From Kiritimatiellia bacterium (lineage in GTDB: Bacteria; Verrucomicrobiota; Kiritimatiellia; B70-G9): a stretch of DNA of 36,693 bases. Below, one piece after another: positions 3,827 through 16,115 of this stretch. The position numbers and the translations under genes are program-made. The number at the start of each line of letters is the position of its first letter. The first letter of the stretch is position 1. The notes below the pieces were generated by a model. It worked only from the letters and a program-made list of their open reading frames with translations, was not told the DNA's origin and searched no databases. The DNA lies in contig JAOZMZ010000004.1 of NCBI GenBank assembly GCA_029934055.1, forward strand, positions 1 through 36,693. The letters are read 5' to 3'.

Positions 3827-4450
3827 GTGGCGGAACTGAGGACCTACGTTTTTCTCGACAGTCTCCAGCCGCAGTTCGCGGCCTTTCTGGGGACCGTCGC
3901 CCAGGGATTTCTGCCTGTGGCCGGGCAGGCCTCGCTCTTTGTGGAGATATCCCCGGGAATCGAAATAAACCGGATAACCGACGTGGCGCTCAAGGCGACC
4001 AACGTGACTCCCGGAATGCAGATCGTCGAACGCCTCTACGGCATGCTCGAGATCCATTCCGATTCCCAGGCCGACGTGCGCCAGGCAGGCGCCGCGATCC
4101 TCCAGGCTCTCGACCTGAAAGAAGAAGACCGCATCAAGCCCAAGGTCTATTCCAGCCAGGTCATCCGGCGCATCGCCGACCACCAGACCCAGCTCATCAA
4201 CCGCATGCGCCACGGCAACATGATCATTCCCGGTCACACCCTTTACGTAATGGAGGTCGCCCCGGCCGGCTATGCGGCCCTGGCGGCCAACGAGGCCGAA
4301 AAGGCGGCCGAAATCAACATTCTCGAGGTACGTACCTTCGGCAGTTTCGGACGGGTTTATCTCGGCGGCGAGGAACGTGATATTGATATCGGCTATCGCG
4401 CCGCGGAAAACGCCATTGCGGCGCTCACCGGGCGCGAACCGAAGAAATGA
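3827..4450 (+). CDS. tandem-domain microcompartment shell protein (BMC-T), copy 1
   Basis: 207 residues with two Pfam00936-like BMC domains (about 34-98 and 136-202) in the standard, non-permuted order. Domain 1 begins [12 protein letters not shown] and domain 2 begins [13 protein letters not shown] roughly 30-residue N-terminal lead ([14 protein letters not shown]) precedes the first domain. BMC-T proteins form trimers that look like hexamers and tile the shell facets, often with a wider pore for larger metabolites or cofactors. The start is GTG, supported by AAAGGAG seven bases upstream. It lies 52 bp after the fusion enzyme and before the BMC-H gene, in one transcription unit. The pore-lining residues cannot be assigned safely by eye. 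Confidence 0.9.
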
Positions 4451-5266: not shown

Positions 5267-6712
5267 ATGGCCAGACTGAGTGACCGGGAAATCGAAGAAA
5301 TCGCCCGGCGCATCGCCGCCGACATAACCGGGGCGCCGACCAACGCTTCCCCCGGTGCTGCGCCGCCTCCGACTTCGTCTTCCGCCATGTCGGGAATATT
5401 CGCCTCGGTCGACGAAGCTGTGCGTGCCGCATCCGAAGCCCAACCGCGCTTCGCCGCTCTCACCCTCGAAAAACGCGGGGAAATCATAGCTTCCATCCGC
5501 GCCAGGATGCTGGCCGAAGCCACCGCCCTGGCGCGCGCCGCCTACGAGGAGACCGGGCTGGGCCGCTTCGAAGACAAAATAATGAAAAACGAACTGGTCG
5601 CCCGCAAGACGCCCGGGATCGAGGATCTGCATCCGACCGCCTACAGCGGTGATCACGGCCTGACCATCTGCGAGCCGGCGCCCTTCGGCGTGATCGGGGC
5701 CATCACCCCCTGCACCAACCCCACTTCGACCATCATCTGCAACTCGATCGCCATGCTTGCGGCCGGAAACACCGTTGTCTTCAACGTGCATCCCACCGCC
5801 CGTAACTGTTCCAAGCTGACCATTCAGCTCGTCAACCAGGCGGTGACCGCCGCCGGCGGTCCTCCCAACACGGTCACCGGCGTGGAGAACCCCACCATCG
5901 AAAGCGCCCAGCAGCTCATGCGCCATCCGGCGGTGCGCCTTGTGGTGGTCACCGGCGGCGGGGGCGTCGTCAAGGCGGCCATGGAAAGCGGCAAGCGCGC
6001 CATTTGTGCCGGGCCGGGCAACCCGCCGGTCGTCGTCGACGAGACCGCCGACATCGAAAAGGCCGCCCGCGACATCGTGCTCGGAGCCTCGACCGACAAC
6101 AACATCATCTGCGTCGACGAAAAGGAAGTGATCGTCGTCGAATCCGTCGCCGACACACTCTTGCAGGCCATGGCCCGCAACAACGCGGTGATCATCGGCA
6201 AGGATCGCCTGAGTGCGCTCGAAAAGGTGATCTTCACGGAAGTCCACGGGCCGCGCAAACCCGCCACCGTCAACCGCGAACTCATCGGCAAGAACGCCGA
6301 CCTGATCCTCTCGCGCATCGGCTTGAATGTGCCGGCCACGATCCGCCTCGGAATAGTCGAAGTCAATGAAGATCATCCCCTGCTGTGGACCGAACAGATG
6401 ATGCCGATCCTTCCGGTTGTGCGGGTGCCGGACGCCGATTACGCCATCGACCTGGCCGTCAAGGTCGAGGGCGGCAACCGCCATTCGTTCATCATGCACT
6501 CGCGCAATCTCGACAATCTCAGCCGCATGGCCCGCGAGTGCAACGCGAGTATCTTCGTGAAAAACGGACGTTCCCAAGCCGGGCTCGGCTTCGGCGGCGA
6601 GGGCTACTGCTCCTTTACGATCGCCAGCCCCACCGGCGAAGGACTCACCGGTCCGCGGACGTTCTCGCGCAGTCGGCGTTGCGTCCTGGTTGACCATTTC
6701 CGAATCGTGTAA
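5267..6712 (+). CDS. CoA-acylating aldehyde dehydrogenase of the microcompartment (EutE/PduP-like)
   Basis: 481 residues. Residues 4-22 (LSDREIEEIARRIAADI) form an amphipathic helix followed by a Pro/Ser/Ala linker (about 23-42), the layout of a shell-targeting encapsulation peptide in PduP. The catalytic domain starts near residue 43 (SGIFASVDEAV). The cofactor region contains GAITPCTNPTSTIICNS (about 144-160), the nucleophile is Cys282 in NNIICVDEKEV, and the C-terminus RCVLVDHFRIV matches EutE/PduP. The expected reaction is aldehyde + NAD+ + CoA to acyl-CoA + NADH; here the likely substrate is acetaldehyde released by DeoC. AAAGGGG lies seven bases upstream of ATG 5267. The stop overlaps the next ATG by one base, suggesting coupled translation. 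Confidence 0.95.
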   Translation: MARLSDREIEEIARRIAADITGAPTNASPGAAPPPTSSSAMSGIFASVDEAVRAASEAQPRFAALTLEKRGEIIASIRARMLAEATALARAAYEETGLGRFEDKIMKNELVARKTPGIEDLHPTAYSGDHGLTICEPAPFGVIGAITPCTNPTSTIICNSIAMLAAGNTVVFNVHPTARNCSKLTIQLVNQAVTAAGGPPNTVTGVENPTIESAQQLMRHPAVRLVVVTGGGGVVKAAMESGKRAICAGPGNPPVVVDETADIEKAARDIVLGASTDNNIICVDEKEVIVVESVADTLLQAMARNNAVIIGKDRLSALEKVIFTEVHGPRKPATVNRELIGKNADLILSRIGLNVPATIRLGIVEVNEDHPLLWTEQMMPILPVVRVPDADYAIDLAVKVEGGNRHSFIMHSRNLDNLSRMARECNASIFVKNGRSQAGLGFGGEGYCSFTIASPTGEGLTGPRTFSRSRRCVLVDHFRIV

Positions 6713-7341
6713 TGAAGAAGTACCCGGCCATCGCCCTTCTCGAATTCGACGACATCCCGGCTGGGATGACCACCGCCGATGCCATGCTCAAGGAATCACC
6801 CGTGGCGGTCATTCGTACCGGAACCATCGGCGGAGCCGGATTTCTCACCATCCTGGCCGGCACCACGGCGGCCGTGCAGGAAGCGCTGCGCGAAGGGCTT
6901 CTTCTCGCCGGCGAACGCCTGCGCGATCATGCCTTCCTGCCCGACGTTCATCAGGCGCTCTACGACGCGGTCCTCGAAGCGCACCGCAATCCGCCGGGCG
7001 GCGCAATCGGCGTGCTCACCACCTCCACGGTGACCGCAAACGTCCTGGCCCTCGAACGCGCGCTCAAGGGCACTCCGGTAACCCTCGTGGAAGTGCGGCT
7101 CGGAGACCCCGCCCTGGCCGGACAAGCACTCGGCATCGTCAGCGGGGAACTGCGCGACGTACAGGCCGCCATGGAACTCGCACTGGAAGTGATCGCGGCA
7201 CGCGCGGTGAGCGCCTCGCACCGCATCATCACCGCACCACACGAGGCTTTCCTGCGCCAGCTCGGGCAAACCAGCGATATCTTCACCGCCGCGGCGGTGG
7301 AACTCGAAGGAGAAAAACCGGCCACCCCGGTTTCGCAGTAG
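6712..7341 (+). CDS. tandem-domain microcompartment shell protein (BMC-T), copy 2, divergent
   Basis: 209 residues with two BMC-like domains: about 4-70 (PAIALLEFDDIPAGMTTADA) and 97-165 (GAIGVLTTSTVTANVLALER). A helical connector lies between them and a C-terminal tail ends in EKPATPVSQ. It is clearly different from the BMC-T at 3827-4450 and contains no cysteine, so it cannot hold the iron-sulfur cluster known in PduT-type trimers. Trimers should occupy shell facets, possibly with a specific pore. Its ATG overlaps the dehydrogenase stop codon (TAATG), so the two are probably made together. The second domain is divergent, so the family call rests on fold-like pattern and context. Confidence 0.85.
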   Translation: MKKYPAIALLEFDDIPAGMTTADAMLKESPVAVIRTGTIGGAGFLTILAGTTAAVQEALREGLLLAGERLRDHAFLPDVHQALYDAVLEAHRNPPGGAIGVLTTSTVTANVLALERALKGTPVTLVEVRLGDPALAGQALGIVSGELRDVQAAMELALEVIAARAVSASHRIITAPHEAFLRQLGQTSDIFTAAAVELEGEKPATPVSQ

Positions 7342-8219: not shown

Positions 8220-8876
8220 ATGTTGAAGATCGCCGTGCTCGGCTCCGGGAAAGGAAGCAATCTGGCCGCCATCCTGGAAGCCGCCGACGCGGGCACACTG
8301 CCCGCGGCCGTCGCTTGCGTCATTTCCGACGTTGAGGATGCCTACATCCTGGAACGTGCGCGCCAGCGTAACATACCCGCCTACTACGTGGACTGTGCTC
8401 CGTTCAAGACCAAGCTCGACGGGCGCGCCGAGGAAGAAGTCATCCGTATCATTCGCAGTCACGACACCGGGCTGGTGGTCCTGGCCGGGTTCATGCGCAT
8501 GGTCAAGTCCGGACTGCTGGAGGCTTTCCCGCAGAGGATCATCAACATTCACCCGGCCCTGCTGCCCTCTTTTCCCGGTCTCGAAGCCTGGAAACAGGCC
8601 CTGGACTACGGCGTCAAGGTCACCGGCTGTACGGTACATTTCGTGGACGCCGGCATGGACACCGGCCCGATAATCCTCCAGCGCAGCGTTCCGGTGCTCG
8701 ACGATGACACCCCCGCAACGCTCCATGCCCGCATCCAGGAACAGGAACACATCGCCTATCCCGAGGCCATCCGGCTGATTGCCGCCGGGCGCATCCGCAT
8801 CGAAGGCCGGCGGACCCTTGTTCTGCCGGAAGTTCCCGCTGGTGGCAGCAAAAAAAGCCGGCCCGGGGCAGACTAG
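8220..8876 (+). CDS. purN: phosphoribosylglycinamide formyltransferase PurN
   Basis: 218 residues. It transfers a formyl group from 10-formyl-tetrahydrofolate to GAR in step three of purine synthesis. It begins MLKIAVLGSGKGSNLAAI, with the phosphate-binding Gly-rich loop. Catalytic Asn109 and His111 lie in INIHPALLPSFPG and Asp147 in FVDAGMDTGPIIL, at almost the same positions as in E. coli. ATG 8220 is chosen over an upstream in-frame ATG (8163) because AAAGGAGG precedes it and the sequence then matches the family start. No other purine genes are adjacent and no purine riboswitch is apparent upstream. Confidence 0.96.
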   Translation: MLKIAVLGSGKGSNLAAILEAADAGTLPAAVACVISDVEDAYILERARQRNIPAYYVDCAPFKTKLDGRAEEEVIRIIRSHDTGLVVLAGFMRMVKSGLLEAFPQRIINIHPALLPSFPGLEAWKQALDYGVKVTGCTVHFVDAGMDTGPIILQRSVPVLDDDTPATLHARIQEQEHIAYPEAIRLIAAGRIRIEGRRTLVLPEVPAGGSKKSRPGAD

Positions 8877-8938: not shown

Positions 8939-9835
8939 ATGACGGAAACGAGAGACAGCGCTCAGCGCAAGTTGGTGCTGGGACTGCCCAAGGGCAGCCT
9001 CCAGGAGTCCACCTTTGCCATGTTCAAGAAGGCCGGCTTCACTTTCAAGGCGGGAGCCCGTTCCTACACTCCCACGGTGGACGATCCGGAACTTTCCGCC
9101 CGGCTCATCCGGGCCCAGGAAATCAGTCGCTACGTTGAACACGGCATGCTTGATGCCGGCATCACCGGCTATGATTGGATACTCGAAAACGACTCCCAGG
9201 TCGTCGAGGTCGCCGAACTCAATTACGCCAAGCAGGGACTGCGCCCCGTCCGTTGGGTTCTGGCGGTGCCTGAAGATTCGCCGATCCGCTCTGCAGCGGA
9301 CCTCGAGGGGAAACGTATCGCCACCGAGGCGGTCGGTCTCGCCAAGCGCTGGCTGGCCGAAAAAGGCGTCAGTGCCGAAATCGAATTCTCGTGGGGTGCC
9401 ACCGAAGCCAAGGTACCGGAACTGGTGGACGCGATCATCGAAATCACCGAAACCGGGGCGTCACTGCGGGCCAACAACCTGCGCATAGTGGATACCGTAC
9501 TGACCTCCACCACGCGCCTGATTGCGAACCGTGAGGCCTGGAACGACGCCTGGAAAAAGGCGAAGATCGAACAGATCTCGCTGCTGCTGAAGGGGGCGTT
9601 GACGGCGGAAACGCGTGTGCTCCTCAAGCTCAACACCCCTTCCGAGAACCTCGATCGAATATTGGAGCTTTTGCCGGCCATGCACGCGCCCACCGTCAAC
9701 AATCTCGCTTCAAAAGGATGGGTTTCCGTCGAATCGGTCGTCGAGGAGCCGACCGTGCGCGAAATCATTCCACGCTTGAAAGCCGCGGGCGCGACCGACA
9801 TCATCGAATTGTCCCTGAACAAGGTCGTTCCGTGA
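8939..9835 (+). CDS. hisG: ATP phosphoribosyltransferase HisG, long form
   Basis: 298 residues. It catalyses the first committed step of histidine synthesis, joining ATP and PRPP to give phosphoribosyl-ATP. The N-terminus reads KLVLGLPKGSLQESTFAMFK and the body has GITGYDWILEN and the PRPP-site segment ITETGASLRANNLRIV. The final 75 or so residues resemble the ACT-like regulatory domain of long-form HisG, which usually allows feedback by histidine without HisZ. AGGGAG lies just upstream of ATG 8939. No other his gene is next to it, so the pathway genes are scattered in this genome. Confidence 0.96.
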   Translation: MTETRDSAQRKLVLGLPKGSLQESTFAMFKKAGFTFKAGARSYTPTVDDPELSARLIRAQEISRYVEHGMLDAGITGYDWILENDSQVVEVAELNYAKQGLRPVRWVLAVPEDSPIRSAADLEGKRIATEAVGLAKRWLAEKGVSAEIEFSWGATEAKVPELVDAIIEITETGASLRANNLRIVDTVLTSTTRLIANREAWNDAWKKAKIEQISLLLKGALTAETRVLLKLNTPSENLDRILELLPAMHAPTVNNLASKGWVSVESVVEEPTVREIIPRLKAAGATDIIELSLNKVVP

Positions 9836-9876: not shown

Positions 9877-9892
9877 GTGTATGTGAATACAC
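9877..9892 (+). other. small inverted repeat before the bS22-like gene
   Basis: GTGTA-TGTGAA-TACAC forms a 5-bp stem directly ahead of the ribosome-binding site GGGAG (9893-9897). It could affect translation of the tiny gene that follows, or be chance. Confidence 0.25.
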
Positions 9893-9902
9893 GGGAGTTC
9901 CC

Positions 9903-9992
9903 ATGGGCAGCATAAAGAAAAAACGCCGAAAGAAAATGGCCAATCACAAGCGTCGCAAGCGCCTGCGCGCTGATCGGCACAAAAAGAAATAA
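9903..9992 (+). CDS. AURKAIP1/COX24-like small ribosomal protein (bS22-type)
   Basis: A 29-residue, extremely basic protein (MGSIKKKRRKKMANHKRRKR... ending DRHKKK). The pattern M-G-S-x-x-K-K-R-R-K-x-M matches the AURKAIP1/COX24 domain. In mycobacteria and some other bacteria that domain is the small-subunit protein bS22, located near the decoding site. The gene has GGGAG six bases before its ATG, a clean TAA stop, and lies alone between hisG and the TPR gene. It is shorter than most gene finders accept. The assignment rests on the conserved N-terminal motif, size and charge; a role in this organism's ribosome is inferred. Confidence 0.8.
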   Translation: MGSIKKKRRKKMANHKRRKRLRADRHKKK

Positions 9993-10036: not shown

Positions 10037-12229
10037 ATGAAGGACGTACAGGCCAGTACTGTCAGGCTCACCGTCGGAATCCTGGCGGCGGCGGCTTTGG
10101 TGTGCTGGACCGCCGCCTGCAGCGCATTCCCGGGCGGGAAACCGCGCGCACCGAAAACCGCGGCCGCCCATCCGGCACGGGTGAGTGCTCCCCTGAGTTA
10201 CAGCAACGCCCTCATGGCGGATGCACTCGCGGCTTACAGCGAGGGTGTCCGGCAGCAGATGCACGGTAACTTCGATGCCGCGCTGACGAATTTCCTCAAT
10301 TCCCTGGCTTACGATCCCGACAACCAGGAGCTCTACCTGCGCATTGCACTTGAATATATCCGCCGGCGGGACGTGCCCAAGGCCGTGGCAACGCTGCAGA
10401 ATCTCATCCGCCGCAAGCCGCGTTCGGCGGACGCCCATCTCTGGCTCGGGCTGGTATACCGCGCCGCCGGGAATCGCCAGGCGGCCTACCAGGCCTACCG
10501 CCGCGCCATGAAACTGGCACCACGGCGCCATGCCCCATATCTGGAAATGGCTTCCATGCTCCAACGCGAGGGCAAATCCGACCAGGCCGTGGCCCTCCTG
10601 CGGAAAGGCATAAAGAAGGTTGACGATCCGACCCAACTGATGCGCCTGCTCGGCGAAATATACCTGCGCAAGGCCGCCTCAAGCGACAACACCGGGCAGG
10701 CGAAGGAAAACAGGCTGGCCGCCGCGCATGCCTTCGAACAGGCCCTTGAACACGACCCGGAAAACGTCGAACTGCTCTACCGCCTGGCGGATCTCTACAT
10801 ACTCACCGATCAGCCGGCCAAGGCCATACCCTACTTCCAGCGGATCGAAAAAATCGAACCCGACAACATGGACATCAAGAAGAAGATAGCCCTCAGCTTT
10901 ATTGCGGGCGGAGACCGCCGGAAAGCCGTCGCCACCCTCGAAAAAATCCTCACCAAGGAACCCGACAACCCCCAGATCAACTACTATCTCGGCGAAATCT
11001 ACGAAAAACTCGGCGACAAGCAAAAGGCCCGCAATCACTACCAACTGGCGACACGGGCCACCCCGCCCCAGCCCAGCGCCTATATCAAGCTGGCCCTGCT
11101 CGAAATGGAAGACGACCCGCAGGAGGCCGTGGAAACGCTCGCCAAGGCCCTCAAGGTCCTGCCGGACAATGTGCGCATCACGGAAATGCTCGCCTACCTC
11201 TACCTCAATCAACACGACTACCACAATGCCCTGCAATACTTCAGCCGTGCAGAACAGCTACTCCGGAACAGCCCGGAACGCAGCGCATCGCCCTTGTTCT
11301 ATTTCAACTACGCGATAGTCGCCCAGCGCGCCGGCAAGATTCAGCAGGCCGCCGACCTCCTGGTGGACGCGGCCGCCGAACAGCCGCTCCTGCTGGATAC
11401 CTACGTGCAGTACATCGTTCAGCAGGATGATGAAGAGGTCACCGAAGAAGCTATCCAGGTCCTCAAAAAGGCCGCACCCGAGTTGCCTGATCAGCCCGCT
11501 GTCCTGATCTACCTCGGCATGCTCCAGAGTTTTGAGCACCACTACTCCGAGGCGTTACAGGCCTTCCGGCAAGCGGAAGAAAGGATCGAGACTCTGCCGG
11601 CCGATTCCCCCCAGCGCATCCGGCTGGCTGATTCCTTCTACTTCCTCTACGGCGTCGCTTCAGAGCGTACCGGGCATCCCACCGAAGCCGAGGAGCATTT
11701 TGAAAAATGCATCGAACTGAATCCCAAACACGCCGACGCCTACAACTACCTCGCCTACATGTGGGCCGAAAAATCCGTCAACCTCGACAAGGCCCTCAAA
11801 TACATCCACAAGGCCCTGGAGATTGAACCCGACAACGGTGCCTTCCTCGATACTCTGGGCTGGATCTATTACATGAAGGGCGACTACGAGCAGGCCCAAC
11901 CGCAACTCGAGCGCGCCTGGAAACAAATGTCAGACGATCCGACCATCGCCGAGCATCTCGGAGACCTCTACGACAAACTCGGCCTGGCAGACAAGGCTGC
12001 CTTCTACTGGAAGAAGTCGTTGCAGATGGATCCCTCCAACACCAATCTGCTGGCAAGGATCCGAGATCGCGGGATCGCCTTCGAACCCCCCGCAGCCGCC
12101 ACCACCAACAGCGCTCCGGACACCGGCGGCACCCCGGCGGATACAAATCAGGCCCCGCCGGCGTCTTCTCCCGCACCGGCGGAGTCCGGAGAGGACCGCC
12201 CCCAGACGTCTCCCACCGAGACGCGGTGA
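10037..12229 (+). CDS. large TPR-repeat protein, probably exported or a lipoprotein
   Basis: 730 residues. The N-terminus has a basic start and a hydrophobic segment (about 10-27) followed by TAAC, a possible but imperfect lipobox with Cys28. From about residue 75 to 680 runs a long series of tetratricopeptide repeats, recognisable by repeated patterns such as [20 protein letters not shown] and DNGAFLDTLGWIYYMKGDYE. The last 45 residues are a Pro/Ala/Thr-rich disordered tail. TPR arrays bind other proteins; candidates include outer-membrane or secretion assembly, but no partner is evident. The 3' end overlaps the convergent fmt gene by 82 bp, all within the low-complexity tails. Confidence 0.88.
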   Translation: MKDVQASTVRLTVGILAAAALVCWTAACSAFPGGKPRAPKTAAAHPARVSAPLSYSNALMADALAAYSEGVRQQMHGNFDAALTNFLNSLAYDPDNQELYLRIALEYIRRRDVPKAVATLQNLIRRKPRSADAHLWLGLVYRAAGNRQAAYQAYRRAMKLAPRRHAPYLEMASMLQREGKSDQAVALLRKGIKKVDDPTQLMRLLGEIYLRKAASSDNTGQAKENRLAAAHAFEQALEHDPENVELLYRLADLYILTDQPAKAIPYFQRIEKIEPDNMDIKKKIALSFIAGGDRRKAVATLEKILTKEPDNPQINYYLGEIYEKLGDKQKARNHYQLATRATPPQPSAYIKLALLEMEDDPQEAVETLAKALKVLPDNVRITEMLAYLYLNQHDYHNALQYFSRAEQLLRNSPERSASPLFYFNYAIVAQRAGKIQQAADLLVDAAAEQPLLLDTYVQYIVQQDDEEVTEEAIQVLKKAAPELPDQPAVLIYLGMLQSFEHHYSEALQAFRQAEERIETLPADSPQRIRLADSFYFLYGVASERTGHPTEAEEHFEKCIELNPKHADAYNYLAYMWAEKSVNLDKALKYIHKALEIEPDNGAFLDTLGWIYYMKGDYEQAQPQLERAWKQMSDDPTIAEHLGDLYDKLGLADKAAFYWKKSLQMDPSNTNLLARIRDRGIAFEPPAAATTNSAPDTGGTPADTNQAPPASSPAPAESGEDRPQTSPTETR

Positions 12230-14540: not shown

Positions 14541-16115
14541 TCAGGATTCCTTCGAGTGGTAGAGCTCCTTGCCGGATTCCGCGTGCAGGATCACGAATTC
14601 TTCCATGTGCCTGGCGGGATCCGGGACAAAGCTCAGGCGCGTGTTGTACTGCTTCTGCAAATCCATGAGGATCTTTTCATCCTCTTTACGAAGGCGCTCG
14701 AGGACCGCCGGATTGATCACGATCCGCAACGGCACCTGTTCCCGCGAATGGATGCGCCGCAACACCTCGGATATGCGACGCTGAATTTCGACACTCATGC
14801 TCAGGGCCGACTTCACCTTGCCGCGGCCATGACAGTAAGGGCAATCGCTGTAGGTCGTCTCGCGAATGCTTTCCTCGGCCCTCTGGCGCGTCATCTCCAC
14901 CAGTCCCAGCGGGGATATGGGCAGGACATTGGTGCGGGCGCGGTCTTTCTGCAAAGCCTTCTTCAGCGCACGGTAAACCTGGTTCTGATGGCGTTTGTGA
15001 CGCATATCAATGAAGTCGATCACCACCAGCCCGCCGATATTCCGCAGCCGCAACTGCCGCGCGACCTCCTCGGCCGCCTCCAGATTCACCTCGAGGATGA
15101 CGTCCTCCTGGGACCCGCTGCGCTTGTGTCGGGCGGTATTCACGTCCACCGCCACGAGGGCTTCGGTCTCGTCGAAAGCCAGGTACCCGCCCGATTTCAG
15201 CCGGACTTTCCGGCGGAAGGCGTTTTCTATCTGCCGCTCGACGTCGAAATGCTCGAAGATCGGGGCCTCACCGGCGTAGAGCTTCACCCGCCCGCGCGCG
15301 CGCCGTGAGAGGCGGGAAATCATGCTGCGCAAGCGCTCGTAGACTTCCTTGGAATCCACCACCACCCTCTCGACGTCTTCGGTCAGGGAATCCCGCACGA
15401 CCCGCTCGGCAAGGTCCGGTTCCCGATAGAGGCGGCAGGGTGCCGGCTTGTTCTTGATGCCATCCTCGATTTCCTTCCAGATCTCCACGAGCGTCCGCAT
15501 ATCACGCACGAAACTGGTCTTGCGTGCTCCGGCCCCCACGGTTCGTACAATGAGACCGTTCTTCGGGGGTATCGGCAGCCGGGCGATAATTTTCTTCAGC
15601 CGCTGGCGTTCGCGCGCATCCTCGATCTTCCGGGACACCCCCTTCAGCGAGCTGCCAGGCATCATCACCAGGTAACGACCCGGAATACTGAGGCTGGCGG
15701 TGACCCGCGGTCCCTTGGAACCGATGGCGTCCTTGGTGACCTGCACGATTATTTCCGATCCGACCGGAAACAGTTTTGCCATTTCCCCTTCCGAATAGCG
15801 TTTCTTGCGGCGGGAAACCGCCCGGCGCTCGATTCCTTCTTCCGCCTCCAGCCGGGCGGCGTCTTCCGGTATCATGTCCCAGTAATGGATAAAGGCATTC
15901 TTCTTCAGTCCGATATCAACAAAAGCCGCCTGCAACCCATCATCGAGATTCTGGATGCGTCCCTTGAAAATGCTCCCCACCAGGTGTTGTTCCGTCGGCC
16001 TTTCTATGAAAAAAGCCTCCAATACCCCACCCTCCAGGAGAGCGACTCTGGTTTCCAATGACTCAACGTTAATGATTATTTCCTGAGTACGCTTCTTCCC
16101 TATTATCCCGATCAT
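14541..16115 (-). CDS. rng: ribonuclease E/G family endoribonuclease
   Basis: 524 residues, the length of RNase G rather than RNase E. The order is an S1 RNA-binding domain (about 35-130; VGSIFKGRIQNLDDGLQAAF and KNAFIH), the RNase H-like and 5'-sensor region, and the catalytic DNase I-like part with metal ligands in VAVDVNTARHK and IDFIDMRHKRH. The zinc-link sequence CPYCHGRGKV follows. It processes rRNA and mRNA, and in E. coli RNase G also affects cell-shape gene products. GGAGGAG lies just before ATG 16115. It is the last gene of the mreB-to-rodA operon, a placement seen in many bacteria. Its 3' end faces the alcohol dehydrogenase gene, only 18 bp away. Confidence 0.95.
   Translation of the reverse strand: MIGIIGKKRTQEIIINVESLETRVALLEGGVLEAFFIERPTEQHLVGSIFKGRIQNLDDGLQAAFVDIGLKKNAFIHYWDMIPEDAARLEAEEGIERRAVSRRKKRYSEGEMAKLFPVGSEIIVQVTKDAIGSKGPRVTASLSIPGRYLVMMPGSSLKGVSRKIEDARERQRLKKIIARLPIPPKNGLIVRTVGAGARKTSFVRDMRTLVEIWKEIEDGIKNKPAPCRLYREPDLAERVVRDSLTEDVERVVVDSKEVYERLRSMISRLSRRARGRVKLYAGEAPIFEHFDVERQIENAFRRKVRLKSGGYLAFDETEALVAVDVNTARHKRSGSQEDVILEVNLEAAEEVARQLRLRNIGGLVVIDFIDMRHKRHQNQVYRALKKALQKDRARTNVLPISPLGLVEMTRQRAEESIRETTYSDCPYCHGRGKVKSALSMSVEIQRRISEVLRRIHSREQVPLRIVINPAVLERLRKEDEKILMDLQKQYNTRLSFVPDPARHMEEFVILHAESGKELYHSKES

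Follow-up and report, generated by a model that had tools for sequence, protein, structure and literature searches.

The 29-codon gene at positions 9903 to 9992 on the forward strand of the window (the whole 36,693-nucleotide stretch of Kiritimatiellia DNA that we analyzed) is real and conserved, codes for a protein, and belongs to the COX24_C/bS22/mS38 family, and its sequence makes it very probable that it encodes the small-subunit ribosomal protein bS22. The gene is a new member of an already known family; the new leads are the gene order around it and the copies found in phages, the second being the more novel. Its product, MGSIKKKRRKKMANHKRRKRLRADRHKKK, has Lys or Arg at 17 of its 29 residues, and the frame ends with TAA at 9990 to 9992. 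An earlier note had described an ATG start, 29 residues of which more than half are Lys or Arg, and a good ribosome-binding site. Coordinates, length, and start proved exact, and a ribosome-binding site, GGGAG at 9893 to 9897 on the forward strand (GGAG at 9894 to 9897), can be read 5 nt ahead of the ATG at 9903. Most relatives in the class also have an AGGAG- or GGAG-like motif ahead of the start. Several bS22 genes in Verrucomicrobiia-type loci (e.g., L089, L109, and L126) have no clear AGGAG, unlike those of Kiritimatiellia and Omnitrophota.

Pfam COX24_C (PF08213) matched residues 1 to 29 of the window protein with 30.1 bits (cut-off, 23), and the window gene was its sole match in the whole genome. 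In a phmmer search of the PDB with the window protein, the top match was bS22 of F. johnsoniae (7jil_5; E, 3e-4). With profile A1, built from 24 homologues, all 12 distinct PDB sequences at E ≤ 10 were bS22 or mS38, the best being 7jil_5 again (4e-11); the PDB matches comprised bS22 of F. johnsoniae, B. burgdorferi, mycobacteria, and Cutibacterium as well as mitochondrial mS38. The earlier reading of a bS22-type ribosomal protein was thus borne out by the COX24_C score, the PDB matches, and the conservation of the frame described below. Furthermore, window bS22 scored 53.4 bits with a profile built without the window, whereas none of 1000 shuffled versions of it exceeded 9.0 bits. The COX24/bS22 profile search proposed earlier was successful with Pfam but not with the NCBIfam bS22 equivalog NF047430, for which the window protein reached 22.5 bits and not the cut-off of 34; the three family members from Verrucomicrobiota and Omnitrophota tested with the NCBI model were below the cut-off or gave no match. 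NF047430 gave 58.3 bits with the C. acnes chain and no match with the F. johnsoniae, B. burgdorferi, and 9i5v chains. Since the bS22 proteins of F. johnsoniae and B. burgdorferi are proven by structure, this model is narrow, in effect limited to the actinobacterial branch, and does not represent bS22 as a whole.

Nine residues were invariant across the 24 sequences (M1, K6, K11, H15, K16, K19, R25, H26, and K27). The bS22 proteins of F. johnsoniae (7jil chain 5) and B. burgdorferi (8fmw chain V), of 28 to 30 aa, match the window family over their full length without gaps and share K11, H15-K16, K19, and R25-H26-K27 with it, but they start with MPSG or MPCG, whereas the window protein starts with MGSI. 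Entries differ in naming chain 5 of 7jil, either S22 or L38; bL38 is a separate protein in the available part of PMC10618245. Actinobacterial bS22 (M. smegmatis 5o61, C. acnes 8crx; the NF047430 type) has the same MGS[VI]..KKRR.. start and belongs to the same length class, but the match is weak (E, 0.13 to 0.2) and the C-terminal RHKKK is replaced. Mycobacterial bS22 and mS38, to which the earlier note had likened the window protein, are both among the PDB matches, but the Bacteroidota and spirochaete proteins are closer than the mycobacterial one. In mitochondrial mS38/AURKAIP1/COX24 (6xyw, 9evs, and 6nu2), a C-terminal stretch matches A1 (E, 3e-4 for 6xyw); these proteins are longer, with an N-terminal part, and the match covers about 20 residues. 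The window protein is bacterial, 29 aa long, and without such an extension, which places it outside mS38. In length, basicity, and helix it fits bS22 (29 aa, with relatives of 28 to 33 aa, for a class of about 28 to 34 aa), and a helix was predicted at residues 4 to 23 of a 31-aa homologue (mean pLDDT, 88.6). Eukaryotic and archaeal eL41, reported to occupy the same pocket (in the available parts of PMC10618245 and PMC10085706), is an analogy only, and A1 did not find it in the PDB at E ≤ 10.

Frame conservation, on which the earlier note had let its reading depend, was examined in the 53 best-scoring genome matches of the class (L001 to L053, the class loci). The frame was intact in 53/53, encoding 28 to 33 aa, with 33 ATG and 20 GTG starts. 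Over 54 sequences, mean pS was 0.72 and mean pN 0.17, with pN below pS in 1430/1430 non-identical pairs, and the shifted frames of the same sequences gave the opposite trend. Between window bS22 and a relative of the same family (L231), we counted 10 silent and 3 replacement changes. Within the 36.7-kb window, this gene was the only open reading frame of 25 to 40 aa with at least 50% Lys or Arg, and 20 order-1 Markov simulations yielded a mean of 0.00 such frames.

The leader also holds a small hairpin (GTGTAT-GTGA-ATACAC, 6 bp, 9877 to 9892, forward strand), which the earlier note had reported. The hairpin exists, but we rejected it as a regulatory element, for its stability is not above that of shuffles and it is not conserved: perfect hairpins of at least 6 bp occurred in 6/53 class leaders versus 3.3 expected. 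Because the window leader is not more stably folded than its shuffled versions (z, −0.31) and few leaders of relatives have a hairpin, it is probably incidental. A promoter between hisG and bS22 was likewise rejected; the one weak sigma-70-like match (1 found versus 0.3 expected) lies inside hisG at 9776 to 9804.

We then considered the distribution of the family. Profile A1 matched 282/288 genomes of the phylum, inferred to be Verrucomicrobiota since the named hisG records nearest to that of the window are MAGs of Kiritimatiellae, Lentisphaerae, and Verrucomicrobia, including 247/250 of the better genomes; the 6/288 without a match include some fairly complete ones. PF08213 alone matched 146/288 of these genomes at E ≤ 0.001 and 134/288 over its cut-off, so that Pfam at its cut-off catches about half of the Verrucomicrobiota genomes. 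For three further sets of genomes, each gathered around a named center and carrying the phylum label of that center, A1 was found in 100/117 (Omnitrophota), 117/118 (Bacteroidota), and 7/99 (Planctomycetota). The sole miss in Bacteroidota was the center itself, and this set can serve as a positive control because the structure of F. johnsoniae bS22 has been solved (PMC10618245, available part). By these counts, Verrucomicrobiota and Omnitrophota gain a small ribosomal protein that is almost universal in them, and the sharp contrast with Planctomycetota provides a natural comparison for the role of bS22. One Omnitrophota locus, L155 (G343:C7:53628-53714 and 53867-53953), has a pair of equally scoring bS22 genes on a single strand, separated by about 150 nt.

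A position far from the ribosomal cluster, as had been noted earlier, fits the neighbors scanned, which were purN, hisG, and a TPR protein gene. hisG, encoding ATP phosphoribosyltransferase with a C-terminal domain, occupies 8939 to 9835 on the forward strand and ends 67 nt ahead of bS22; a TPR-repeat protein gene follows on the same strand at 10037 to 12229. In 53/53 class loci, hisG immediately preceded bS22 on the same strand, with gaps of 14 to 95 nt in 52 loci and 223 nt in one, and a TPR gene was downstream on the same strand in 34/53. As most gaps are 14 to 70 nt, bS22 is probably co-transcribed with hisG. Starting from 80 named hisG loci, we found bS22 just downstream in 46 with a home-made profile, and later in L102, Verrucomicrobiia and Omnitrophota being included; 2 of the 34 loci without a match (L069 and L087) are uninformative, their sequence ending less than 50 nt past hisG. 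The hisG loci led to 38 genomes, 20 of which contained bS22. Among the matches listed, the two genes were linked in 82/96 genomes of the phylum and 50/50 of the class, a count that favors close relatives since the best-scoring genomes were listed for both genes. Outside the class, they were apart in at least 11 further genomes of the phylum, compared by eye. In Omnitrophota, hisG was linked in 25/29 loci and a TPR gene lay downstream in 17/29 (the best 29 of 100 positives). The order hisG-bS22, often followed by the TPR gene, is thus common to Kiritimatiellia, other Verrucomicrobiota, and Omnitrophota. It is not that of Bacteroidota, where hisG was near bS22 in 0/30 loci (the best 30 of 117 positives) and the neighbors differ. 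In at least 15/30 of these Bacteroidota loci (L201 to L230), bS22 is followed in the same orientation by an RNase E/G-like gene, an arrangement that may connect bS22 with rRNA processing. The RNase E/G gene of the window (14541 to 16115, reverse strand) was discarded as an equivalent neighbor, being separated from bS22 by 4.5 kb and encoded on the opposite strand. Our literature search found no paper pairing bS22 with hisG and none pairing bS22 with Verrucomicrobi-, and the hisG-bS22 pair is a widely shared gene order. HisG is the feedback-controlled first step of an amino-acid supply, and regulating it jointly with a component of the ribosome might be of benefit, which we offer as a thought. 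A microcompartment gene group, with BMC-domain shell proteins at 3827 to 4450 and 6712 to 7341 and an aldehyde dehydrogenase at 5267 to 6712, also lies near purN and hisG in the window.

The constant position directly after hisG in the class, seen in other groups as well, would suit a small peptide with a regulatory or accessory function for hisG, either associated with HisG or acting in attenuation, that resembles bS22 through its basic residues only. We regard this as very improbable, since the gene follows hisG rather than preceding it, the Bacteroidota homologues (117/118 genomes) have no adjacent hisG in 30/30 loci, and the gene is conserved even in several families of the phylum where it sits away from hisG. 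In addition, the match depends on the order of the residues and not on composition (53.4 versus at most 9.0 bits).

As a bS22 protein, the product would act in the ribosome as its solved homologues do, whose pocket and bridge are described in the available parts of PMC10618245, PMC10085706, and PMC6582356. Its basic helix would insert into a pocket of 16S rRNA formed by h2, h27, h44, and h45 beneath the decoding center and, across the interface, would touch 23S rRNA near H67/H68. By analogy with these structures, bS22 would hold the top of h44 and add an intersubunit bridge, probably steadying h44 and the joining of the subunits. We found no 16S rRNA gene in the MAG of the window. The very basic predicted helix would also fit a cationic antimicrobial or a nucleic-acid-binding peptide working outside the ribosome, and C. 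acnes bS22 is antimicrobial in vitro, inhibiting other bacteria and cell-free translation (PMC10085706, available part), which makes a second role of bS22 possible. As a replacement for the ribosomal role, such a peptide is hardly credible, as 29 residues leave no space for a signal sequence, every relative in the PDB is ribosomal, and a near-universal single copy across phyla better suits a housekeeping part. Finally, the idea that the frame behind hisG is open by chance, which a length of only 29 codons might suggest, is contradicted by the conservation, the purifying selection, and the shuffle controls, and its probability is negligible.

Beyond the cellular genomes, we found intact bS22-like genes in 13 IMG/VR virus contigs (L232 to L244), at 8832 to 8882 in L232, 9139 to 9189 in L234, and 3372 to 3422 in L237, among others. 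A tblastn search of phages and plasmids with the 29-aa peptide gave no match, and a related-locus search in viral contigs confirmed 0/14 pattern matches. BLAST masks such low-complexity sequence, so we discounted these negatives and used degenerate DNA patterns instead. The pattern of the invariant residues, which in gene-bearing loci matched only the expected site (two matches for the two genes of L155), matched 8 IMG/VR contigs, and an actinobacterial-type pattern matched 5 more. The ten distinct virus-encoded peptides scored 20 to 45 bits, whereas no score above 15 arose among 1000 shuffled versions of each. Of four virus peptides searched with COX24_C, one barely passed (23.6 bits), one fell short (20.3), and two had no match.

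Two of these contigs, L234 (297,623 bases) and L237 (231,285 bases), encode a T4-type Gp23 capsid protein (E, about 1e-63; 0/14 controls) and a terminase (E, 5e-42 and 8e-50, respectively, with a profile that also matched 11/14 cellular controls). Terminase was found in 3/13 virus records, one of them weakly, and Gp23 in 2/10, and the contigs other than these two and L232, L235, and L239 are less certain. The bS22-like gene lies among genes for a primase-helicase, an SSB, a ParB-like protein, and an endolysin in L235, near an endolysin gene in L232, and next to a dUTPase gene in L239; a clear ATG is lacking in those of L238 and L239. bS22 was absent from the stretches examined of L246 and L247, which are 74 to 75% relatives of L235, and thus seems to be a variable gene among these relatives. 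The subtypes differ among phages, being Verrucomicrobiia-like, Bacteroidota/spirochaete-like, or actinobacterial-like. S22 is not named in the available main texts of three papers on virus ribosomal proteins (PMC6375957, PMC13157829, and PMC7162821). We tentatively propose, as a possibility somewhat short of an even chance, that phages themselves provide bS22 as a replaceable component of the decoding region, the subtypes presumably being those of the hosts; the phage copy would replace or top up that of the host and shift translation in favor of phage mRNA, as has been suggested for bS21 of phages. The tested pairs of phage genes are under purifying selection (pS, 0.61, and pN, 0.04, for L233-L235; pS, 0.67, and pN, 0.05, for L232-L234), which suggests that the spot near the decoding center is worth taking over.
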